Shown here: positions 1,475 through 18,010 of the stretch, in pieces | How positions within the stretch are numbered: position 1 is the first letter of the stretch | Layout: every line of letters begins with the position of its first letter | Source: a virus | IMG/VR virus record: IMGVR_UViG_3300037508_000472 | Location: 1-20,226 of that record | Length of the DNA stretch: 20,226 bases | Reading direction: 5' to 3' (one strand) | The notes under the pieces: model-generated | Seen by the model: only the letters and a program-made list of their open reading frames with translations | Database searches by the model: none | Told to the model about the DNA's origin: nothing | Position numbers and translations under genes: made by a program

Positions 1475-2553
1475 TGCCGGCCTGACGCGGGGTCGAAAAC
1501 GGTCAAAACGCTTGCGCCGTGCTCTTGGGGGAAGTGGCCTAGCTTTTCGGCGTGGCTGTCAATGAACTTGTAGCCACGGGTGCGAATCAGGCTGTAACTA
1601 AAGCCCCGCTCCGCTGACTCCTCCCGGTACAAGGCCCAGTTATGCCGGTGCCCACACACGTACACGTCGGCCGCTTCTTTCATAGCCGCCGCCTTCTTCG
1701 GCCCGTGCAGCGGGTTCCACATGCTGTTTCCGGGGAAGTCATGCGCCGCCCAGATACGGAATTCCTGCCCGTTGGGACAGGCCAGCACGAACTGCGCGCC
1801 CCATTCTTCAAAGGCAATGGCCTTGCCGCCCACTTCCCGCGTCCATTCGGCGGACGTGTGCCCTTCCCATGCGTCGTGGTTGCCGAATAGCCAGACGAGC
1901 CACCGGATGCCGGAACCCTTCAAGAACCACCGCGCCAGCTTCCGCGCCGTTTCGACACTGGTGTCGGAATGGGCATACAGCCGTATGAGGCGGCTCGCAT
2001 GCGGCCAGTTGTCCAAGGTGTCGCCGATGTTGACGCTGTAAACCCCCGGCTCGCTGGCCAGCTCGGCGTGCGCCTTGAGCATGGGCCAGTTGGTGCCGGC
2101 GTTGTCCAAGTGCGGATCGCCCCACCACATGATTGCAAACGGTTCGCTCGACGGCATTTCGATTCGAAACCATTTTTTCGCCTGTTTATGCTCTGCGCGC
2201 TTACTGTAGCGCCGGCACATCAGGTCGATGATTTCATCGTCCGGAATATCGTCGTCTGGGAGGTCTGGCAGGGTTGGCTCTTCGGGCCTTGTCTCGTTCC
2301 CTACCCGATGCTTCATCGCGTCGGTGACAAGTTTTTTCTTCGACCGCAGCGGGATGTGCCCGCCGATGCCATAACGCTGCTGCCCACTGATGATGCGATG
2401 CTCAACTCGCCGCCTGTCCACGCCTTCAACCCTTGCGACCTCGGCGATGGCGGAAGGCATTTGCCCGTTAAGCTTGAAGCCGCGCTTTATGGCGTCGTCA
2501 ATCAGGGCGATGGTGCGCTCGATTTCCTGCCTGCTCAACGGCTTCTGCGGCAT
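1372..2553 (-). CDS. Calcineurin-like metallophosphoesterase with N-terminal HTH-like region
   Basis: A 393-residue protein with the complete metallophosphoesterase signature in order: GDPHLDN (145-151, metal ligands D146 and H148), GDTLDN (177-182, D178), GNHD (224-227), H271 in HDFPG, and GHRH (301-304). All expected di-metal ligands are present, so it is probably an active phosphomonoesterase, phosphodiesterase or nuclease-like hydrolase; the substrate cannot be read from sequence. Residues 1-55 ('SAIAEVARVEGVDRRRVEHRI') look like a helix-turn-helix, and 90-110 form an acidic linker. Its ATG overlaps the holin stop (TAATG), so it is the distal gene of the lysis cluster. Phosphoesterases of this type occur in several tailed phages, but their role there is unclear. 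The C-terminus is encoded opposite a small HTH gene. Confidence 0.88.
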   Translation of the reverse strand: MPQKPLSRQEIERTIALIDDAIKRGFKLNGQMPSAIAEVARVEGVDRRRVEHRIISGQQRYGIGGHIPLRSKKKLVTDAMKHRVGNETRPEEPTLPDLPDDDIPDDEIIDLMCRRYSKRAEHKQAKKWFRIEMPSSEPFAIMWWGDPHLDNAGTNWPMLKAHAELASEPGVYSVNIGDTLDNWPHASRLIRLYAHSDTSVETARKLARWFLKGSGIRWLVWLFGNHDAWEGHTSAEWTREVGGKAIAFEEWGAQFVLACPNGQEFRIWAAHDFPGNSMWNPLHGPKKAAAMKEAADVYVCGHRHNWALYREESAERGFSYSLIRTRGYKFIDSHAEKLGHFPQEHGASVLTVFDPASGRHYDFEHPEDGVVFLRALRARYTVDGLRPQVSAAR

Positions 2554-2969: not shown

Positions 2970-3274
2970 TTGAAGAAACCCACAAACCCGGCGATTTTGG
3001 CCATCAAAGCCCCCGCAGCACCGGCAGCGCCGCCCACCAGCATCAGCGTTTTCCAGCCGCCCCTTGCTTCGGCTAACACGCGGCGTATTTCGGTTAGCTC
3101 ACGGCGCATTTCACGCATTTCGTATTCCAGCGTGCCGATTTTCGCCCCATGCTCACCGATCTGCTGGTAGATTTCATCGCTCACTGTCAGCGCCTCCCAC
3201 ATGCTGATGGGCGCGGTGCGGAATAACAGCGCCGGTTTGATGGCTTGTCCGAATGTCAGTTTTTCGGCGTCCAT
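2966..3274 (-). CDS. Small membrane protein of the lysis cluster
   Basis: A 102-residue protein with an N-terminal soluble part (MDAEKLTFGQAIKPALLF), a heptad-like coiled-coil stretch (about 38-70, 'IGTLEYEMREMRRELTEIRR') and a C-terminal hydrophobic segment (about 75-100, LMLVGGAAGAAGALMAKIAG) that should span the inner membrane. It ends with an ATGA overlap onto the holin start, so the two are translationally coupled. Coiled coil plus a single C-terminal anchor between endolysin and holin suggests an antiholin or accessory lysis protein. A spanin is less likely, because i-spanins are anchored at the N-terminus and no lipobox is present. The function is inference from position and topology. 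Confidence 0.7.
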   Translation of the reverse strand: MDAEKLTFGQAIKPALLFRTAPISMWEALTVSDEIYQQIGEHGAKIGTLEYEMREMRRELTEIRRVLAEARGGWKTLMLVGGAAGAAGALMAKIAGFVGFFK

Positions 3275-3289
3275 GCCGGCTTATTGTCC

Positions 3290-3643
3290 TCATGCCCTGC
3301 CACCGTGGCGGATTGAGAAATGCCCAGGATCTACAGGCCGGGTAAACCGCCCGCCCCACGCGCAATCCGGGGCTAGGCTTTCCCAATACTCACCAAGCAG
3401 GCGGATTTCATCGGCGCTTTGCAGCCACTTGCCGCCGCGAAACACGTTGAAATCCACGGCCAGTCGCTCAGTGTGCAGGCTGTTGGCAATGCCTAGTCCA
3501 CGCTCCGCATTTAGCTTGGCCTGCTCAGGTGTCCGCCACAGCTCGCCGGAAGTGAGTTCAAACCCGTGGGCGTATGCGTATTCGATGAGCAGGCCCATCA
3601 AGCGCACGAAGCGGCTTTGCTTCTGCCTAAGTGTTTCGGCCAT
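3290..3643 (-). CDS. Endolysin, M15-family peptidase
   Basis: A 117-residue protein with the zinc-peptidase pattern of the M15 (VanY/D-Ala-D-Ala carboxypeptidase-like) family: SLHTERLAVD at 55-64 gives H57 and D64, WGG at 96-98, and DPGHFS with H108 as the third ligand. Phage members cut peptide bonds in peptidoglycan (L-alanyl-D-glutamate or D-Ala cross-link peptidases). It has no signal peptide or membrane helix, so it would need the holin two genes downstream to reach the wall. The length is that of a bare catalytic domain. Its start overlaps the end of the preceding virion gene by 17 nt. The bond specificity cannot be told from the sequence. Confidence 0.88.
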   Translation of the reverse strand: MAETLRQKQSRFVRLMGLLIEYAYAHGFELTSGELWRTPEQAKLNAERGLGIANSLHTERLAVDFNVFRGGKWLQSADEIRLLGEYWESLAPDCAWGGRFTRPVDPGHFSIRHGGRA

Positions 3644-4328
3644 TGAGGCTTCCGATACCCATTGCGCCGACCTGGCGGGCCGCCGTCATCGGGTTTGCAA
3701 ACTGCTTGGCTACATTCGCCGCAGCCTGCACAGGGGCTTTCAGGGCATTGATGCCGGGAAGCTTGACTGAAGGAGCCACAGCGGAGCCAAGGCCGCCCAA
3801 GGCCGCGCCAACCGGGCCACCCGTGATTCCACCAAGCGCCGTGCCGGTTGCGATTTTCGCCAGTCCTGCGCCGGGAATGGCCATCATTGCGAGGCCGGGA
3901 ATCAGCGCGCCCAAACCACCTGAAAGCATGCCGGATGCGTTGGCGCGTTTCGTGTCGGCGTCTTTCCAGCTTCCGAAATTCCGTAAGGCGTCGGCGTACT
4001 GAGTACCGCTGGCCATGTTGCTGAGGGCCTGCTGGTATCCAGCATTCCCAGTTCCGGCCTGCCGCGCCATATACCCGGCAAATTCCTGCACCGGCTTTGC
4101 CTGCTGCTGTAGGGCTGCAAACTGCCGCGCATCTCGAGATTGCGGGGCCAGTCCACGCAGCGCGGTCTGTCGGGCGATATTCGGGTTTTGAGCCTGCATC
4201 TGCCGCATCTGCTGGAATGCAGGCATGGCGGCGTTGACGTTGTTGGAATAGCCCTGCGCCATGCTCTGAGCAGGGCCGAATTGGGACATGGGGCGCGACA
4301 TGGCGTTGAGGTTGGGTATGTTCACCAC
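3627..4328 (-). CDS. Probable virion/ejection-associated protein, Gly/Ala-rich
   Basis: A 233-residue protein (GTG start at 4328, or GTG at 4325 giving a GTGA overlap with the previous stop). The N-terminal half is Gln/Met/Asn-rich and helical (about 20-110, 'AFQQMRQMQAQNPNIARQTA'). The second half holds a long Gly/Ala hydrophobic stretch (about 133-190, 'GGLGALIPGLAMMAIPGAGL' and 'GGITGGPVGAALGGLGSA'), which could insert in membranes. Helical plus Gly/Ala hydrophobic composition resembles the internal proteins that podoviruses eject to carry DNA across the envelope, and similar proteins are encoded at 5975-10064. A membrane-active lysis role is the alternative, given the adjacent endolysin. 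No family is recognised. Confidence 0.6.
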   Translation of the reverse strand: MVNIPNLNAMSRPMSQFGPAQSMAQGYSNNVNAAMPAFQQMRQMQAQNPNIARQTALRGLAPQSRDARQFAALQQQAKPVQEFAGYMARQAGTGNAGYQQALSNMASGTQYADALRNFGSWKDADTKRANASGMLSGGLGALIPGLAMMAIPGAGLAKIATGTALGGITGGPVGAALGGLGSAVAPSVKLPGINALKAPVQAAANVAKQFANPMTAARQVGAMGIGSLNGRNT

Positions 4329-4771
4329 TGCACCGCCTGCACGGCTTCGATGGTGGTAGCCGCGTCAATGGCATTTTTCAACTGCGCTTGCTTGGCCCAC
4401 ATGATCTGCTGAGCCTGAAACACCGCCGCGCCCATCTGCGTGAGCTGCGCGATGGTAAGCGTCCTGTCCTTGTTGTCGGCGGTACGCCAAGGAATGGAGG
4501 GCGGGGTTGGAATGCCAATGGCTGCGGCTTCGCGCACCATGCTTAAAGCGTTGGCGATTCGGGCGCTGGTGGCTTCGTCGGCGTCCCAAGTGTCGCCGCC
4601 CCACTGGGCGTTCAAGGCCAATAAAGCCGCGTTGCGGGCTTGAGTGATAGCTTCTGAGCGTTCCGCTTTTCTTTCCTGCAACGTGACTTGAGGGACGCCA
4701 CTTTTCCAGTCGGTGATGTCGGCGGCATCTGACAGGGTTACGGGCTCGCCGTTGATGTAAACGCGAATCAT
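4322..4771 (-). CDS. DUF4376-containing tail-fibre-associated protein
   Basis: A 149-residue protein. The N-terminus (MIRVYINGEPVTLSDAADIT) is short and beta-like. From about residue 40 onward the pattern matches the DUF4376 family of phages: helices with NAALLALNAQWGGDTWDAD, a central WRTADNKDRTLTIAQL and a C-terminal LKNAIDAATTIEAVQAVQW. In phages this domain sits next to, or fused to, tail fibre and fibre-assembly genes. Here it directly follows the tail fibre gene (ATGA overlap at 4768-4771), consistent with a chaperone or cap for that fibre. The domain has no demonstrated mechanism that I know of, so the role is inferred from context. Confidence 0.75.
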   Translation of the reverse strand: MIRVYINGEPVTLSDAADITDWKSGVPQVTLQERKAERSEAITQARNAALLALNAQWGGDTWDADEATSARIANALSMVREAAAIGIPTPPSIPWRTADNKDRTLTIAQLTQMGAAVFQAQQIMWAKQAQLKNAIDAATTIEAVQAVQW

Positions 4772-5811
4772 GATTTCTTGACCCCGTATATCGCGAAGTT
4801 GCCGCTAATGGTCCCGGTGGACGGAAGCAGGCGAAAAGCATTAGCAGTTCCCGTCACCGCGCCCCAGTGATGCAGGAACCCCTGCGAAACCCCTGCTGCA
4901 AAAAAATGCACGCCGCCCGCAAATGTCGAAATGGACGCAATATCAATGTAAGAACTCAGGCCCGACTCATAAGCGCTAGTGAAGCCGGTTCCAAGCACCA
5001 TCCGGGCATCGCCTGCGGACGCGGAAATAAGTGAATTCAAGCCGTTTGATGTAGAGAGAGCGCCCCATCGGGCATGCACGTTTGAAGTTCCTGCAATCCA
5101 TGTTGAGCCGTTATCGGTTGAAAACTGCGCCCACAGGTCGGCGGTGGTTGAAAGCGACAGGTCGTTACCCGTCACCATGTAGCGGTCGTAAGTTGATGTG
5201 AGGATGCTTGAGCCCCACGACACCGCGCTGGCAGCACTGGCGACGGTGCGGTTCAGCAGCACCAAGCTTGCGCCCTGCCTGCTAGGCAGTGCCTGATGGC
5301 CAAGGACGTGAAACCGCGTCCCGTCGTACACCACGGACGCCGGGGCGCCAGCCACCAATTCCCCGCCGACGCAGGCCGCGCCGAAAGCGAAAACGTCTTT
5401 AGGGCCAGCGATGCCGCTAACCTGAAGCGTCGTCGCGCCTGTATTCGTGGACGCCGGGACAAAGTTGAAAACCTGTCCTGCGGCATAGGCCGGAATGGCG
5501 GGCGTCGCGGAAGCCTGAATAGCATTGGCGGTGCCTACGATGCTTGTCAGCCACGCCGCCGCGTTGTCCTGCACCTGCCCCAGATTCGCCGCGTCCGTCC
5601 TGGCGGTGCCATTGGCCAGACTAGTGAGCCGGTTGCTGCCCATGCTCAGATTGGCCGACGCTGCGCCCTTCCCGGAGCGGGAAAGGCTGTCGGTTAGCTC
5701 CGTGGCAAGGTCCGACGTGAGGGCGTTAAACGTCGACGCGCTGATAACCGAGCCAGAAACTACCGGCTGGCCGGAGGGCAGGCTGTAATTGCCCGAGCCG
5801 TCTCGTGACAT
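4768..5811 (-). CDS. Tail fibre / receptor-binding protein
   Basis: A 347-residue Ser/Thr/Ala/Gly-rich protein. The first ~85 residues (opening MSRDGSGNYSLPSGQPVVSG and continuing through 'NLSMGSNRLTSLANGTARTD' and 'AANLGQVQD') form the well-known N-terminal attachment region of phage tail fibres that docks on the tail. The rest is beta-rich with no recognised enzymatic motif and ends in 'GNFAIYGVKKS', typical of a trimeric receptor-binding tip. It should set host range by binding surface polysaccharide or another receptor. An AGGAA ribosome site precedes the ATG. The gene is followed by a DUF4376 gene in overlapping register and faces a divergent small plus-strand gene. Confidence 0.82.
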   Translation of the reverse strand: MSRDGSGNYSLPSGQPVVSGSVISASTFNALTSDLATELTDSLSRSGKGAASANLSMGSNRLTSLANGTARTDAANLGQVQDNAAAWLTSIVGTANAIQASATPAIPAYAAGQVFNFVPASTNTGATTLQVSGIAGPKDVFAFGAACVGGELVAGAPASVVYDGTRFHVLGHQALPSRQGASLVLLNRTVASAASAVSWGSSILTSTYDRYMVTGNDLSLSTTADLWAQFSTDNGSTWIAGTSNVHARWGALSTSNGLNSLISASAGDARMVLGTGFTSAYESGLSSYIDIASISTFAGGVHFFAAGVSQGFLHHWGAVTGTANAFRLLPSTGTISGNFAIYGVKKS

Positions 5812-5832
5812 GATTTATTCCTGTGCTAGGAT
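5805..5832 (+). promoter_or_regulatory. Likely extended -10 promoter for the 5855 gene
   Basis: GTGACA (5805-5810) and TAGGAT (5827-5832) are separated by 16 nt, and TGC directly before TAGGAT supplies the extended -10 TGn motif. It lies 22 nt before the ATG of the lone plus-strand gene and overlaps the start of the divergent tail fibre gene. A private promoter is expected for a gene inserted against the direction of the late operon. Boxes are seen; activity is inferred. Confidence 0.5.
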
Positions 5833-5854
5833 TGTGGAAACGCGAGGGATTGCA

Positions 5855-6001
5855 ATGCAAAACTGGCAGCTTGCCCTGCTTATCAAGCCTTTCGGAATTC
5901 TGGCCTTCTGGCTTGTCGCCGCCGTCATCGCCCGCCTTGTCATGCGGATGATTCCCGATGGCAAAATCAAACGCCTACTGTCCCGCCGCGTAGGCCCCTG
6001 A
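5855..6001 (+). CDS. Lone small membrane protein, moron-like, 48 aa
   Basis: A 48-residue protein on the opposite strand to all surrounding genes. After MQNWQLALLIK comes one hydrophobic helix (about 12-33, PFGILAFWLVAAVIARLVMR) and a basic tail (PDGKIKRLLSRRVG), which by the positive-inside rule would face the cytoplasm. A GAGGGA ribosome site lies 5 nt before the ATG; an in-frame upstream ATG lacks one. I have seen similar short membrane proteins in prophages, with no known function. It sits between the tail fibre and the internal protein gene, has its own promoter, and its end overlaps the minus-strand gene by 27 nt. This is the classic layout of a lysogenic-conversion 'moron', and a role at the host envelope, such as superinfection exclusion, is a reasonable guess. 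Confidence 0.65.
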   Translation: MQNWQLALLIKPFGILAFWLVAAVIARLVMRMIPDGKIKRLLSRRVGP

Positions 6002-7993
6002 GCCGACCGCCGTCGCCGGGAGGGCGTAGCGGTACAGGGACTGTGCAAGTTGCGCCTGCTGGCTTGGCTGTAGCCGCTGCATCATCTGCGCGGCGGTCTG
6101 CGGGTTCATCAGGGCTTCGACAAGGCGCTGCTGGATGGCCTCTTCTGCCGGTCTGGCAATGGCGCTGATACCCCGCCCCACGGATTGAGACAGCACTGAT
6201 TCCGCCCAAGACTGGGGCAGGCCAAGCGGGCCGATGACTTGGCGCATGATGTTCTGCGATGCCAAGTTCTGAGCCGTGTTGGAGCCCGCGGGCCGCGTGG
6301 CGTCAATGGTTGCCCGCCTTGCCAAAAACTCCTGCACGTCGTCCAGCGTCTGCATCTGCGCGGGGTCTAGTACATTGGCCATCGTTGCGCCCTTGAAGCC
6401 CGTGGCCCGCTTGGCGAACTCATCGCCAGAACGCAGGGCCTCGGCAAACTGTTGCGCCCTGCTTCGGTCCAGCGTGACACCTGGGGTGTCCGCCAAGGCC
6501 GGGACGAACTTTTCGTACAGCGCCCGCCCCAGTTCCATCTGATTGATGGGCCGACTGCCCTGCGCGAACGCTTTTTCGGCTTGTGCGAATTCAGGCACCG
6601 TTTTGCTTAGCTGGTGCATCAGCGATTTTTTGACGGTCGTCAGTTCCCGCTTCACGAAAGCGTTGTCCTGATTCGCCATGATGGTTTTGATGTTGTCGAT
6701 GGCGGAAATGATGGCCTGCGGGTTCTGCCTGACGACGTAATCCGGAGTGGAAACGTACTGCTTTGCAAGGTCCAGCGCCTCAGTGAACGCCTTCCCTTTG
6801 GGCGCGATACGCTTCAGGTCTTTCAGCGCCTCATCCGCCGTGACGGTGCCCTTCCTGAGCCTGTCCAGCACCGTCCTTGCGGCTTTGATGTCCGTACTAC
6901 CGGGTGCGCCTGCGTTTCGTCCCTGTAGGGCGTCGTTCAGAACCTTCCACGCATCCGAGCCGCGCTGCTGTGCCGGGTAGGCTTCAAACAGCGTTTCGCG
7001 GATTTCACCCAACGACTGGTTCAGCGCTTTGTTGGCAGGGTTGGCTTTGAGAACGCGGTCAATCAGGCTGACGGTGCGCCCCGGATCTACTTCAGCGGTT
7101 GACTGCCGTGCAGCGGTATACAGCGGATTGGACGCCTGCTTTCTTGCGGTCTGCGCTGCCGCCATAGCCGTGTCATCACCAGCAATGCCTGACAGGGCGT
7201 TACGCACGGCCAGCGTGTTGGACATGTTCCTTTCGGCAATGTCGCCGGCCACGATGGGGTCCATTGACTGCGCGGCACGCTGCAAGGAAGCGAGGCCGGG
7301 GTCTTGTGTTGCCTCGGCTAGCGTCATCTGCACGCCTGGGACACGCGAAGCCCCGGTGGCGTTGGCGATGGCGTCGGGGTCTCGAGCGAAGCGGCGCAGC
7401 ACTTCGGCTGCGATGGTTTCGCGTCCACCTGACGTGAACGGGCGAATTAGCGCCCCGGCAACTTTGGGCGCAGCGTTGCCGAGGGCTTGGCCTGCCGCGC
7501 CGAACGCTACGCCCGTGCCGATGTTGTCCAGCGTGCTTTCACCCGTGGCCGTCGGCTGAAGGCCGCCCATCAGCCCGCCAAGGGCGGCGGAGCCGATTAC
7601 GGTATTTGCCCCGGGAATGGCCGCAGTAGGAGCGGCAATGGCGACGTTACCAAGCAGATTGCCAAATGCGCCCGCGCCCGTATTAAGCAGCGGCGCGTCT
7701 AAGCGCTTGGATTCGTCAATAGACGCTTGCAGGGGCGCTTCTGAGGATTCAGGCATCAGTACCTGGGCAACGCCTCGCCCAGTGTCCATAAGCGCCTTGC
7801 CGAAGCCTGCGCGGGCCTTTTCCAGTGTGCCCATGCCCTCGGTCGGATCTAGCGACTCCGTGAGGCCCACGCTTTTATAAAAATCAGCTACAGGCATGTC
7901 GGAATAGAATTTCCGGTGCAGCGCCGTGGCCAATTCAACGTCACCCATGTCCTCGTACTGCGGGAACTTGGCGCGCACTTCCTGCATGTTCAT
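5975..7993 (-). CDS. Large internal virion / DNA ejection protein
   Basis: A 672-residue protein. The N-terminal ~40 residues (VRAKFPQYEDMGDVELATAL) match a short motif I recognise at the start of many podovirus internal core and ejection proteins. Residues about 105-190 form a Gly/Ala hydrophobic region (GAGAFGNLLGNVAIAAPTAA), and the remainder is predominantly helical with many Ala, Gln and charged residues up to a hydrophobic C-terminus (ALPATAVGSGAYAAG). Proteins of this build are packed in the capsid and released ahead of DNA to build a conduit across the envelope. No lysozyme catalytic motif is evident. It shares a TGATG overlap with the preceding internal-protein gene. The exact counterpart in model phages is not clear. 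Confidence 0.7.
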   Translation of the reverse strand: MNMQEVRAKFPQYEDMGDVELATALHRKFYSDMPVADFYKSVGLTESLDPTEGMGTLEKARAGFGKALMDTGRGVAQVLMPESSEAPLQASIDESKRLDAPLLNTGAGAFGNLLGNVAIAAPTAAIPGANTVIGSAALGGLMGGLQPTATGESTLDNIGTGVAFGAAGQALGNAAPKVAGALIRPFTSGGRETIAAEVLRRFARDPDAIANATGASRVPGVQMTLAEATQDPGLASLQRAAQSMDPIVAGDIAERNMSNTLAVRNALSGIAGDDTAMAAAQTARKQASNPLYTAARQSTAEVDPGRTVSLIDRVLKANPANKALNQSLGEIRETLFEAYPAQQRGSDAWKVLNDALQGRNAGAPGSTDIKAARTVLDRLRKGTVTADEALKDLKRIAPKGKAFTEALDLAKQYVSTPDYVVRQNPQAIISAIDNIKTIMANQDNAFVKRELTTVKKSLMHQLSKTVPEFAQAEKAFAQGSRPINQMELGRALYEKFVPALADTPGVTLDRSRAQQFAEALRSGDEFAKRATGFKGATMANVLDPAQMQTLDDVQEFLARRATIDATRPAGSNTAQNLASQNIMRQVIGPLGLPQSWAESVLSQSVGRGISAIARPAEEAIQQRLVEALMNPQTAAQMMQRLQPSQQAQLAQSLYRYALPATAVGSGAYAAGQ

Positions 7994-14160: not shown

Positions 14161-15922
14161 TTACGCCTTCATCACGCCCTGAAGCGAGCGGTTGCTCACC
14201 GTGGCGTTGCCCATCCACACAATGGTGCGAACCATCGCGTCCTGATTGATGCTTTCCACCTCTTCCAGCATGGTCATGTTGGCGTCGCGGTGGACGACGA
14301 GATCCATGTAGTTGGTGTTGAGGAAGTAGGCATGCTGCGCCGGAATGCCGCCCGACGAATCGAAGAACACGTCGGCGGTCTTGTACTTCATCGAAATCAT
14401 GCCGGCGCGGCCATTCTCGTCAGCGGTATAACGCTTCAGAGAGGTCTGCGACTGCTCGAAGAACGAGAAGTAATCGTCCGACATTACGATGAGGTCCGGG
14501 GTATCCGCGCCACGAGTGAGGCGAATCCACAGCGGCAGCATCAGCGACTCGATGGTGTTGGCCGACGGCGTAATCGCAGCGCCACCCTGAAGCGGGGCCG
14601 CCGCGCTCTGAACCACGTTCTGCCAGAAGGCGTAGGTCGAACTGTTAATACCGCCGACGGTGCCCGTGCCCGCGTCAGCCACCAGCGACTGGAGGCCGCC
14701 AATCTGGTTGGCAGCCGTGCCGTCGCTGTACAGGTCGCTCGACAAGCCGTTCGCCATGCTGTTCTGCGCGTTCTTCACCTTCGCCTTGACGAAGTTGATG
14801 ATGCGATTCTCACCGCTGTTCACGCGCATTTCGTAGCCGGAAATGGCGATGGAAACCGCCACTTGGCGCCACGGGTATTCCGCCGCGCTGATGACGTCCA
14901 CGGCGTTGATGGCCAGCACGTCGAACCCGCTGTAGCGCTGGTAGGTGCTGTTGCTGGCGTATTCCAGCGGCTCGACGACGGAAAGACCGCCGTCCTCGAC
15001 GCGGGTCTTGCCCGCCTCTTTCAGTTTGCGATACAGCGCGTTGTGCTTCGTCAATCGTGTTATCGCACCGGCTCTTTATCCGATGCTTCACCGCCTTTCG
15101 GTCGGTGTTCAGACTACATCATCACTTGTTGACGCTTGGCTCGCTTGGTGGCGCTGATTTTCGCGCCGTGGCCTTTCGGCTTTCCAAGTTGAGCAAGCCT
15201 ACGCTTTTCGTTTGCTTCGGCAGACCAGCGGTTGCCGACGACATGCCTAGCCGCTTCGACGCCCTTTCGGGTCGCCTCGCCGCCTAGCCCTGCCGAGCGG
15301 TCGTGCGCGTTGTACAGCAGGCCCAGGCCGCGGTAGTGGCTAATCCACCGCTGCTCTGCCTCGTTGTGCGCGCCGCGCTTGGGATATTCCGTCTCTTCCA
15401 GCATTTGCATGGAAAAGTCGGCTTCCCCGTACCGCTGCCAGTCCTCAACCAGTTTCGGCGCATGGTGCTTACCGGAGCGGCACAGGCATCGGTGTTCCCG
15501 AAACCGCTTCGACAATTTGGCGCTTGTCACGCCGATGTACGCAAAACCAGTCGACTTACAAACTAAAGCGTAAATTTTCGCCATTCGGGTTCGCCCTCTC
15601 TGGCCTAACAAGTGTCCCGCGCTCGTGGGCGTTTCGTCCGTTCTGGACTACTTCGCCTAGTCGTTGAACCTTCGCCGCATTCCTGCGGCGCTTGGCTGCT
15701 GATTGCCCAATCCGTCCTGTTTTCAAACCGTCACGCTTGCCGTTACCGGCTACGTTGTGGTCAGTGCGGCTTAAGGGGTTTCCAGCAATTCACGGGATTT
15801 TTCAACGTCTACGGTCAAACGTTGTCCGCAATATCCTTACGGTGGGCACGATAGGTCGTGCTCACCAGCTCGCTGAACACGTTAAACGCGCCAGCGGCAA
15901 AGCCCTGTCCCGGTGAAGGCAT
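14161..15922 (-). CDS. Major capsid protein, split by a group I intron (exons 15922-15818 and 15051-14161)
   Basis: Exon 1 (105 nt) encodes 35 residues, MPSPGQGFAAGAFNVFSELV to ...RKDIADNV; exon 2 encodes 296 residues starting TKHNALYRKLKEAGKTRVED. Joined, they give a continuous 331-residue protein whose pattern (helical N-arm, 'LEYASNSTYQRYSGFDVLAI', 'SAAEYPWRQVAVSIAISGYE', late 'HRDANMTMLEEVESINQDAM') is that of an HK97-fold capsid protein of short-tailed phages. A TAGGAG ribosome site precedes the ATG. Unspliced, translation stops at a TGA directly after codon 35. Exon 2 alone has no proper start: the TTG at 15054-15052 is the intron's last three bases and has no ribosome site. The scaffold gene lies just upstream and a decoration candidate just downstream. 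The capsid protein forms the icosahedral shell. Confidence 0.88.
15052..15817 (-). ncRNA. Self-splicing group IA intron in the major capsid gene
   Basis: 766 nt, read on the minus strand. P1: exon CAACGUU (15824-15818) pairs with GACGUUG (15809-15803), with the U.G pair at the 5' splice site. P3: UCCCGUG (15797-15791) with CGCGGGA (15621-15615). P4: UUGCUG (15788-15783) with CAGCAG (15701-15696). A 6-bp hairpin with GGAA loop (15689-15674) fits P6, and GCCG-GUAA-CGGC (15750-15739) fits P5. P7: GACUA (15662-15658) with UAGUC (15116-15112); between them P7.1 GGCG/CGCC, P7.2 GUCC/GGAC and P8 CACUUGUU (15614-15607) with AACAAGUG (15130-15123). P9 has a GAAA loop (15107-15089). The intron ends with G at 15052. 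The 3' exon ACG can pair with CGU of the P1 loop (P10). P7.1/P7.2 mark subgroup IA. Splicing is inferred from structure and reading frame. Confidence 0.93.
15114..15584 (-). CDS. GIY-YIG homing endonuclease encoded in the intron
   Basis: A 156-residue protein from the ATG at 15584, with a GAGAGGG ribosome site 9 nt upstream; an in-frame TTG at 15611 is a weaker start. The GIY-YIG nuclease domain covers about 1-95: KIY (3-5), YIG (16-18), the catalytic Arg in KRFREHR (R27) and the metal-binding Glu in HNEAEQRW (E75 or E77). The C-terminal part is basic, with 'GNRWSAEANEKRRLAQLGKP' and KGHGAKISATKRAKR, resembling the NUMOD3-type DNA-binding repeats of phage homing enzymes. It would cut intron-less capsid genes and so spread the intron by repair. 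The gene fills the P8 loop, and its TAG stop is the first three bases of the P7 3' strand. Confidence 0.92.
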   Translation of the reverse strand: MAKIYALVCKSTGFAYIGVTSAKLSKRFREHRCLCRSGKHHAPKLVEDWQRYGEADFSMQMLEETEYPKRGAHNEAEQRWISHYRGLGLLYNAHDRSAGLGGEATRKGVEAARHVVGNRWSAEANEKRRLAQLGKPKGHGAKISATKRAKRQQVMM

Positions 15923-17336: not shown

Positions 17337-17839
17337 AGCAGCAGCAACACTTCCTCGTCGTCTTGTTCCAACAATTCCTGATATTCCCGCAGCCTGATTT
17401 CGATGGCGTGCAGGGCCGTCGCGTAAGCCTGCCAGTCAGGCTCCGCTTTCGGCGTTTTCGGGATTTCGACGGCTTCAACAAGTGCCGGGGCTTCTTCCCG
17501 GACTTCAGCCAGCAGCTTCTCAACCCGCGCCTTCGCCCGCTTGGCCTTGCGGTAAGACCAGATTTCGGTGCGCGGCGCGTCGTCGCCGCCGACCTTGGTA
17601 GCCGTGCCGCCCGGAGCCTCACCGCCACCGGACAAGCCGCCAAGGCCAGATACTTCGCCCGAGCCTTGGGCAGTCGTTGCGCCCTGCCCGACAAGACCGC
17701 CAACGCCGTCAACCGTGCCCGAGCCTGACGCTGCTGCGCTTGGCGCTTGGCCTTCGCCAACAAGTCCGCCTACACCGTCAACGGTGCCCGAGCCATTCCC
17801 CGCGCCCGCTGCCGCGTTTTGGAGCAGGGTCAGCAGCAT
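17333..17839 (-). CDS. Phage protein with N-terminal Gly-rich tandem repeats
   Basis: A 168-residue protein in two parts. Residues about 16-73 carry three copies of a 15-residue unit: GSGTVDGVGGLVGEG (16-30), GSGTVDGVGGLVGQG (39-53) and a diverged GSGEVSGLGGLSGGG (59-73), with Ala/Thr/Ser-rich spacers. Residues about 90-168 form a charged helical region ('RKAKRAKARVEKLLAEVREE') that ends in the acidic-hydrophobic tail DDEEVLLLL. No membrane segment is evident. Gly-rich repeats resemble beta-solenoid or flexible linkers of phage structural proteins; the helical end could bind a partner. Function unknown. The end overlaps the next gene's ATG. Confidence 0.7.
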   Translation of the reverse strand: MLLTLLQNAAAGAGNGSGTVDGVGGLVGEGQAPSAAASGSGTVDGVGGLVGQGATTAQGSGEVSGLGGLSGGGEAPGGTATKVGGDDAPRTEIWSYRKAKRAKARVEKLLAEVREEAPALVEAVEIPKTPKAEPDWQAYATALHAIEIRLREYQELLEQDDEEVLLLL

Positions 17840-17845
17840 TGTGGA

Positions 17846-18010
17846 TTAGCCGATTGCGCGCAGGGTGCTTAGGGTGTTTTCGGTTTCCGCGATTTCGGCG
17901 TCAAGCGAGTCAATGCGGGCAATGTCACCCAGATCCGCCGCTGATGCCCTTGCCTGCGAAAGATTCACCAGCCGACGCGATAGCAAATCAATCAGGTCGG
18001 CGATGCTCAT
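17846..18010 (-). CDS. Small coiled-coil phage protein, 54 aa
   Basis: A 54-residue protein too short for usual gene thresholds: MSIADLIDLLSRRLVNLSQA at the start, then DLGDIARIDSLDAEIAETEN and TLSTLRAIG at the end. It is all helical with heptad-spaced Leu/Ile. The ATG shares a base with the stop of the 480-residue gene (TGATG), which is strong support for a coupled real gene. I recognise similar tiny proteins (MSIADLI.LL..RL..L...R..A...GD) from phage structural clusters, again with unknown function; a helical bundle or assembly chaperone would fit. Confidence 0.8.
   Translation of the reverse strand: MSIADLIDLLSRRLVNLSQARASAADLGDIARIDSLDAEIAETENTLSTLRAIG

Follow-up and report, generated by a model that had tools for sequence, protein, structure and literature searches.

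An antisense membrane microprotein family beside the ejection gene of phages and its possible role in DNA entry

What is an open reading frame of 48 residues doing on the strand opposite to the late genes of a phage, between a fibre gene and an ejection gene? The question is raised by positions 5855-6001 (+) of IMG/VR virus record IMGVR_UViG_3300037508_000472 (positions 1 to 20,226); the whole 20,226-nt stretch that was analysed is hereafter called the window. A first-pass annotation had taken this ORF for a moron-like gene expressed from the prophage.

The gene, its neighbours and its coding capacity

The gene runs from ATG 5855 to TGA 5999-6001 and encodes a membrane microprotein of 48 aa, MQNWQLALLIKPFGILAFWLVAAVIARLVMRMIPDGKIKRLLSRRVGP (translation of 5855-6001, +), which we assign to a family named LKPF. 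Its position between a fibre and an ejection gene, as annotated at first, is correct: it lies between two minus-strand genes, 4768-5811 (-), which is fibre-like by its PHROG tail fibre matches (best E 6e-6), and 5975-7993 (-), a 672-aa gene of the ejection (DNA-transfer) type and the last of three consecutive internal-protein genes. The latter assignment comes from a relative in DSL-LC05 annotated as 'putative DNA transfer protein' and from the 'internal protein C' annotated at the equivalent position in PBR31; a sequence match between the 672-aa protein and P22 gp16 was not found. The LKPF gene is convergent with the ejection gene, and the tail of the former and the 3′ end of the latter form an antiparallel overlap of 27 nt (5975-6001) with aligned codon registers. 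The claim that this is the sole plus-strand gene of an 18 kb late cluster fits the ORF list rightwards of ~1.37 kb, while the stretch from 0.17 to 1.32 kb has plus-strand genes. The single span and basic tail attributed to the protein are also what AlphaFold predicts (mean pLDDT 80), namely a long hydrophobic helix at residues 3-32 (codons 5861-5950, +) and a basic C-terminal helix at residues 37-43 (codons 5963-5983, +), at which the family conserves G-K/R-x-K-R-x-L.

Codon conservation among relatives, the absence of which had been named as counting against the first reading, was found. Homologues with 81% and 53% identity occupy the same position in two other viral contigs. Comparison of the window with the nearer relative, L094, gave a dN/dS of 0.144 at a dS of 0.96, with 10/4/20 substitutions at codon positions 1/2/3, and the variable columns among eight P26218-type sequences are distributed as 18/4/23. 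The dN/dS was 0.14-0.40 in 13 of the 15 pairs computed; the value of 0.98 for L043-L058 comes from very few changes (dS 0.06), and dS was saturated for L011-L010. Conservation is far higher in the ORF frame than in the other five, with a mean Z of 9.8 and Z >3 in 135 of 136 lineage pairs, and the runner-up, the best late-strand frame, reached a mean Z of 4.6. Evidently, 5855-6001 (+) is a real gene under purifying selection on its protein. A chance ORF was ruled out by dN/dS, the frame test and synteny. Coding on the late strand, where the mirror frame is often open, was rejected because the best frame there is far less conserved (4.6 against 9.8) and because 3 of 28 representatives have no late-strand frame open at all.

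Two side observations were made on annotation and gene structure. On the late strand of phage MW202557, an annotated 44-aa 'hypothetical protein' (L010:9320-9454, +) overlaps the antisense LKPF gene and is probably a mirror-frame misannotation. Elsewhere in the window, the major capsid gene (14161-15054) is seemingly split by a group I intron at 15055-15900 (-), with an RF00028 match at 15614-15800 (E 9e-10, slightly below the gathering score) and a GIY-YIG endonuclease gene at 15114-15611 (PF01541, E 3.5e-8) within the putative intron; a matching first capsid exon, VFSELVSTTYRAHRKDIADNV, is found upstream of it.

A family tied to the ejection gene

With the ejection proteins of five phages, 80 loci were fetched, and the antisense strand at the ejection stop was inspected in 78 of them (the incomplete L029 and L033 were excluded), 76 of which have the stop. 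A recurring antisense ORF was observed there, mostly of 43-57 aa from the likely start, with the motif A-x-x-L-K/R-P-F followed by P-D/E-G-K/R-x-K-R-L-L. A profile of 28 distinct members recovers the members as well as L027 and L070, which were outside the initial length limits, and also matches L089, encoded on the late strand (E 1e-5, and 2.3e-5 in another search); two other matches of this profile were at chance level (E 0.04-0.05). LKPF is thus a new, previously unnamed protein family present in over 30 distinct lineages, among short-tailed phages that differ widely from one another. Among named phages, the gene is carried as an unannotated ORF by Rhodoferax phage P26218 (L011:11723-11884, -; 17751-17909, +, in the coordinates of its record) and Manatee Spring phage MW202557 (L010:9277-9438, -), and in Xanthomonas phage PBR31 the profile matches at L096:9016-9366 (E 5e-12) with no annotated feature beneath.

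Scans of 26 members against Pfam, PHROGs, NCBIfam and PADLOC gave no match above the cut-off and, for libraries that set none, no convincing E-value. The curated-library scan gave isolated weak matches for one or two members each, the best (E 0.002) being to an adenovirus family; no PDB match was better than E 0.92, and tblastn of the window protein against 50,697 phage records returned chance-level matches only. Single-protein searches being too weak for this family, the named relatives were found via synteny and the profile. A DNA pattern for the C-terminus matched just two contigs that were already known. When the profile was run against 13 phage records at E<=1, four matched, three of them known carriers; the fourth, P22, was rejected as a 23-residue partial match that is not at sieA. 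In a prophage census, one scan of bacterial genome contigs yielded four loci, none of them with an LKPF gene, and one of the genomes concerned, G068, carries the gene on another contig. The profile matched in 3 of 398 (two weakly), 1 of 369 and 2 of 399 bacterial genomes, G068 being common to all three sets. Longer variants with a second hydrophobic stretch were seen on bacterial genome contigs, at L104:1495-1731 (+) and around 2200-2434 (+) of L164; both are convergent with the end of another gene, and the latter runs on into a short-repeat array (about 3226-5457). The accessible parts of the literature contain no paper on the LKPF gene and give it no name, slot or function. Small unannotated phage genes have reportedly been predicted in bulk by Fremin et al. 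2022, a study referenced in PMC11323111, and such catalogues may include LKPF.

The position of the gene is constant as well: wherever the flank is readable, LKPF lies antisense in the slot between the ejection gene and the next gene, with the exception of L089. Across 53 locus clusters, with 46 readable slot junctions and 289 other junctions, an antisense hydrophobic ORF was found in 25 of 31 gaps of at least 90 nt at the slot (one of the 25, L054, being a spurious gene-call artefact) versus 2 of 53 such gaps elsewhere; the slots of L027, L070, L088 and L091 are occupied, yet below the thresholds of this survey. Starting from the protein instead, one search gave 14 loci, all 12 with a readable flank in the slot, and a further search gave 26 of 26. 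In 28/28 and 26/26 loci, the length shared with the ejection gene is divisible by three; these counts include near copies and repeats of the same record. Since a common ancestor explains a common register, we read this constancy as upkeep of both frames and not as independent events. The Leu after Lys-Arg, invariant in all 32 rows, lies opposite the ejection stop region in the window.

Departures from this arrangement were also noted. The one same-strand case seen, L089:5728-5862 (+), is a likely LKPF homologue of 44 aa that lies in the late direction inside the late operon, with ATGA and TAATG overlaps to its neighbours. In L032, a 93-aa lipoprotein-like gene (5836-6117, -; phrog_5685, E 2.5e-7) is immediately upstream of and overlaps the LKPF gene on the same strand. 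Antisense membrane proteins unrelated to LKPF occupy the slot in other phages: a set marked by VGFxGPxxWL (L080:5723-5944, L088:2236-2442 and L098:7522-7788, all -), a second set (L075:5643-5873 and L084:5268-5456, -) and L091:5363-5584 (-). Apart from a weak likeness of L084 to phrog_14464 (E 0.003), these occupants gave no firm match to a curated family, and on the ejection tree either set forms a single branch.

On the 57-row ejection tree, presence of LKPF requires 5 changes compared with 19.4 in shuffles, and 0 of 500 shuffles were as low; the placement of PBR31 and several other rows is uncertain because of their long branches. One branch of 18 rows is without the LKPF gene and mostly has a gap of ~12 nt. 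Among 29 lineages, LKPF similarity tracks that of the ejection C-terminus (Mantel r 0.24, p 0.01) and not that of the N-terminus of the next gene (r -0.10, p 0.85), which by eye is lysozyme-like in L030 and L093. In its evolution, the LKPF gene goes with the ejection gene rather than with the fibre gene. The term moron-like therefore survives in part: the private promoter and the predicted membrane protein agree with it, but the few changes on the tree, the persistence of the gene alongside the ejection gene across very great divergence and the constant overlapping register do not fit an accessory insert.

Promoters, leaders and lifestyle

The private extended -10 promoter proposed for the gene is supported by a sigma70-like consensus match, GTGACA-16-TAGGAT, at 5805-5832 (+), with 9/12 consensus matches and TG before the second hexamer. 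It is the sole promoter-like site in 5700-6100 (shuffle mean 0.0). In a separate score, with weights based on E. coli values, 0 of 300 shuffles reached the window promoter, and with such weights it also has the top score among 32 lineages. Over these lineages, scores upstream of the LKPF ATG exceed those of 784 control ATGs (p 6e-8), albeit unevenly: 10 of 32 are above the control 95th percentile and 11 of 32 are under the 80th. A TAnnnT motif ends exactly 6 nt before the ATG in 7 of 32 lineages versus 0.5% of 3,852 controls (p 1.5e-10), and a -10 box ends 5-7 nt before it in 9 of 32. At such spacing, promoter geometry places the transcription start on the A of the ATG, which suggests a leaderless LKPF mRNA in these 9 of 32 lineages; the TATCCT in L043 may be a mere mirror of the Shine-Dalgarno sequence of the fibre gene. 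By contrast, the window gene has a leader and a Shine-Dalgarno-like GAGGGA (5844-5849, +; a 4-nt anti-SD match). Anti-SD matches of at least 4 nt were found in 17 of 32 lineages versus 23% of 958 controls.

Late-strand terminators occur in the slot of 11 of 32 lineages compared with 12 of 599 control windows; none was found in the window slot, where RNA structure was not above shuffles (late strand z -0.29). Strong terminator-like hairpins of the late strand were seen in the gap between the ejection and next genes in L028, L030, L056, L096, L138, L140, L142, L145, L148 and L160, and in these ten loci the hairpin ends near the -10 or the start of the microprotein gene.

A tyrosine integrase was found in 5 of 38 carrier records (non-carrier L005 excluded, same-strand L089 included) and, in another set, in 14 of 22, many of the records being fragments; a serine recombinase was found in 0 of 19. 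As far as the accessible text of the two reports goes, PBR31 is described as temperate (PMC10975493) and P26218 as lytic (PMC4657236), and no integrase was found in the latter. Expression from the prophage, which the first-pass annotation had suggested as common for such genes, is not a general trait of the family, because LKPF occurs in this lytic, integrase-free phage besides temperate ones.

A possible guard of DNA entry and its rivals

The slot, the orientation, the private promoter, the membrane helix and the linkage to the ejection gene lead to a SieA-like role as the best guess. We consider it about an even call that LKPF acts as an exclusion factor on the neighbouring ejection machinery. 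LKPF would be transcribed antiparallel to the late operon from a private promoter read by the host and, from promoter and strand, could be available before and independently of the late genes, either on entry or in the lysogen. The protein would lie in the inner membrane, its basic tail facing the cytoplasm, and may disturb the conduit formed by the adjacent ejection protein, a target suggested by gene neighbourhood; the DNA of a related superinfecting phage would thereby be kept out. Counted against this role are the dissimilarity to SieA, the missing gp16 match, the size, the core status, the lytic carrier and the orientation of L089, whose gene lies within the operon and reads the same way as the late genes, and so fits late expression instead.

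Several of these points would suit a membrane immunity protein or chaperone that binds new ejection protein and blocks its insertion before packaging, exclusion being at most a by-product. Inheritance with the ejection gene and not the next gene, the core status, the lytic carrier and L089 inside its late operon are all in line with such a function, but the antisense orientation and private promoter uncouple LKPF from late expression of the supposed client, and the 18-row ejection branch does without it; on the whole we regard this alternative as unlikely. A moron expressed from the prophage and acting on some other envelope trait (receptor, motility, stress), not on DNA entry, would also be a small membrane protein with a private promoter, and in L032 a lipoprotein-like gene precedes LKPF in the same antisense cassette. 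The clustering on the ejection tree, the tie to one ejection family and the carriage by a lytic phage make that reading improbable.

That an antisense RNA is the functional product, dampening the ejection message at its 3′ end or the fibre message at its start with the ORF incidental or secondary, seems similarly improbable. The transcript would be antisense to late genes from its own promoter, and the terminators in 11 of 32 slots fit; nevertheless, one frame is strongly conserved, second codon positions most (10/4/20 and 18/4/23; dN/dS 0.14), and late-strand folding in the window slot does not surpass that of shuffles. A role as an auxiliary lysis protein, for instance an antiholin or pinholin, appears very improbable. 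Small holins and antiholins are of small size with a hydrophobic helix and a charged tail, and LKPF resembles them in its size, one TM helix and basic tail, but differs in place and strand: the slot is not a lysis cassette, the orientation is opposite to the late genes, and a separate 3-TM holin (PF11351) lies away from LKPF in L001, L031, PBR31 and the window, which has GTA_holin_3TM at 2553-2969 and an M15 endolysin at 3290-3643.

Phage morons such as the Cor and Llp exclusion proteins are small envelope proteins with their own promoters. Unlike them, LKPF is neither a lipoprotein nor a variable insert, and the window protein gave no match to the Cor PHROG. The closer parallel for the exclusion role that we favour is P22 sieA, which has the same slot and orientation, antisense between gene 16, the third ejection gene, and gene 9, which encodes the tailspike, and its own promoter, as the window gene has by consensus match. 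SieA blocks DNA injection at the inner membrane and is sporadic, occurring in 22 of 66 P22-like phages, according to the accessible part of PMC10883804, whereas LKPF is a core gene. The proteins also differ in size (48 aa in the window versus about 164 for SieA) and show no sequence similarity (hhalign of family alignment A5: probability 0.4, 7 columns), and sieA is separated from gene 16 by a 22-nt gap where the window LKPF gene overlaps its neighbour by 27 nt.

The analysis brings to light a conserved family that is unannotated in the named phages P26218 and PBR31 and in many environmental phages. It provides a clear example of two antiparallel genes that have long shared sequence while both frames stay in use, and of phage genes that are likely leaderless although they do not belong to repressor promoters. 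A broader idea can be put forward tentatively, and we hold it somewhat doubtful: the two genes may form a core dual-coded pair, in which the DNA for the tail of the inhibitor also carries, on its complementary strand and always in the same register, the last codons and stop of the ejection gene that it would inhibit. The key and the lock of DNA injection would then be physically inseparable and co-inherited. P22 SieA and at least two other unrelated antisense membrane families would, on this view, be independent occupants of a general 'ejection-lock' slot of short-tailed phages. The single well-studied case, P22 SieA, would thus become a testable rule: to seek the guard of DNA entry antisense, right after the ejection gene.
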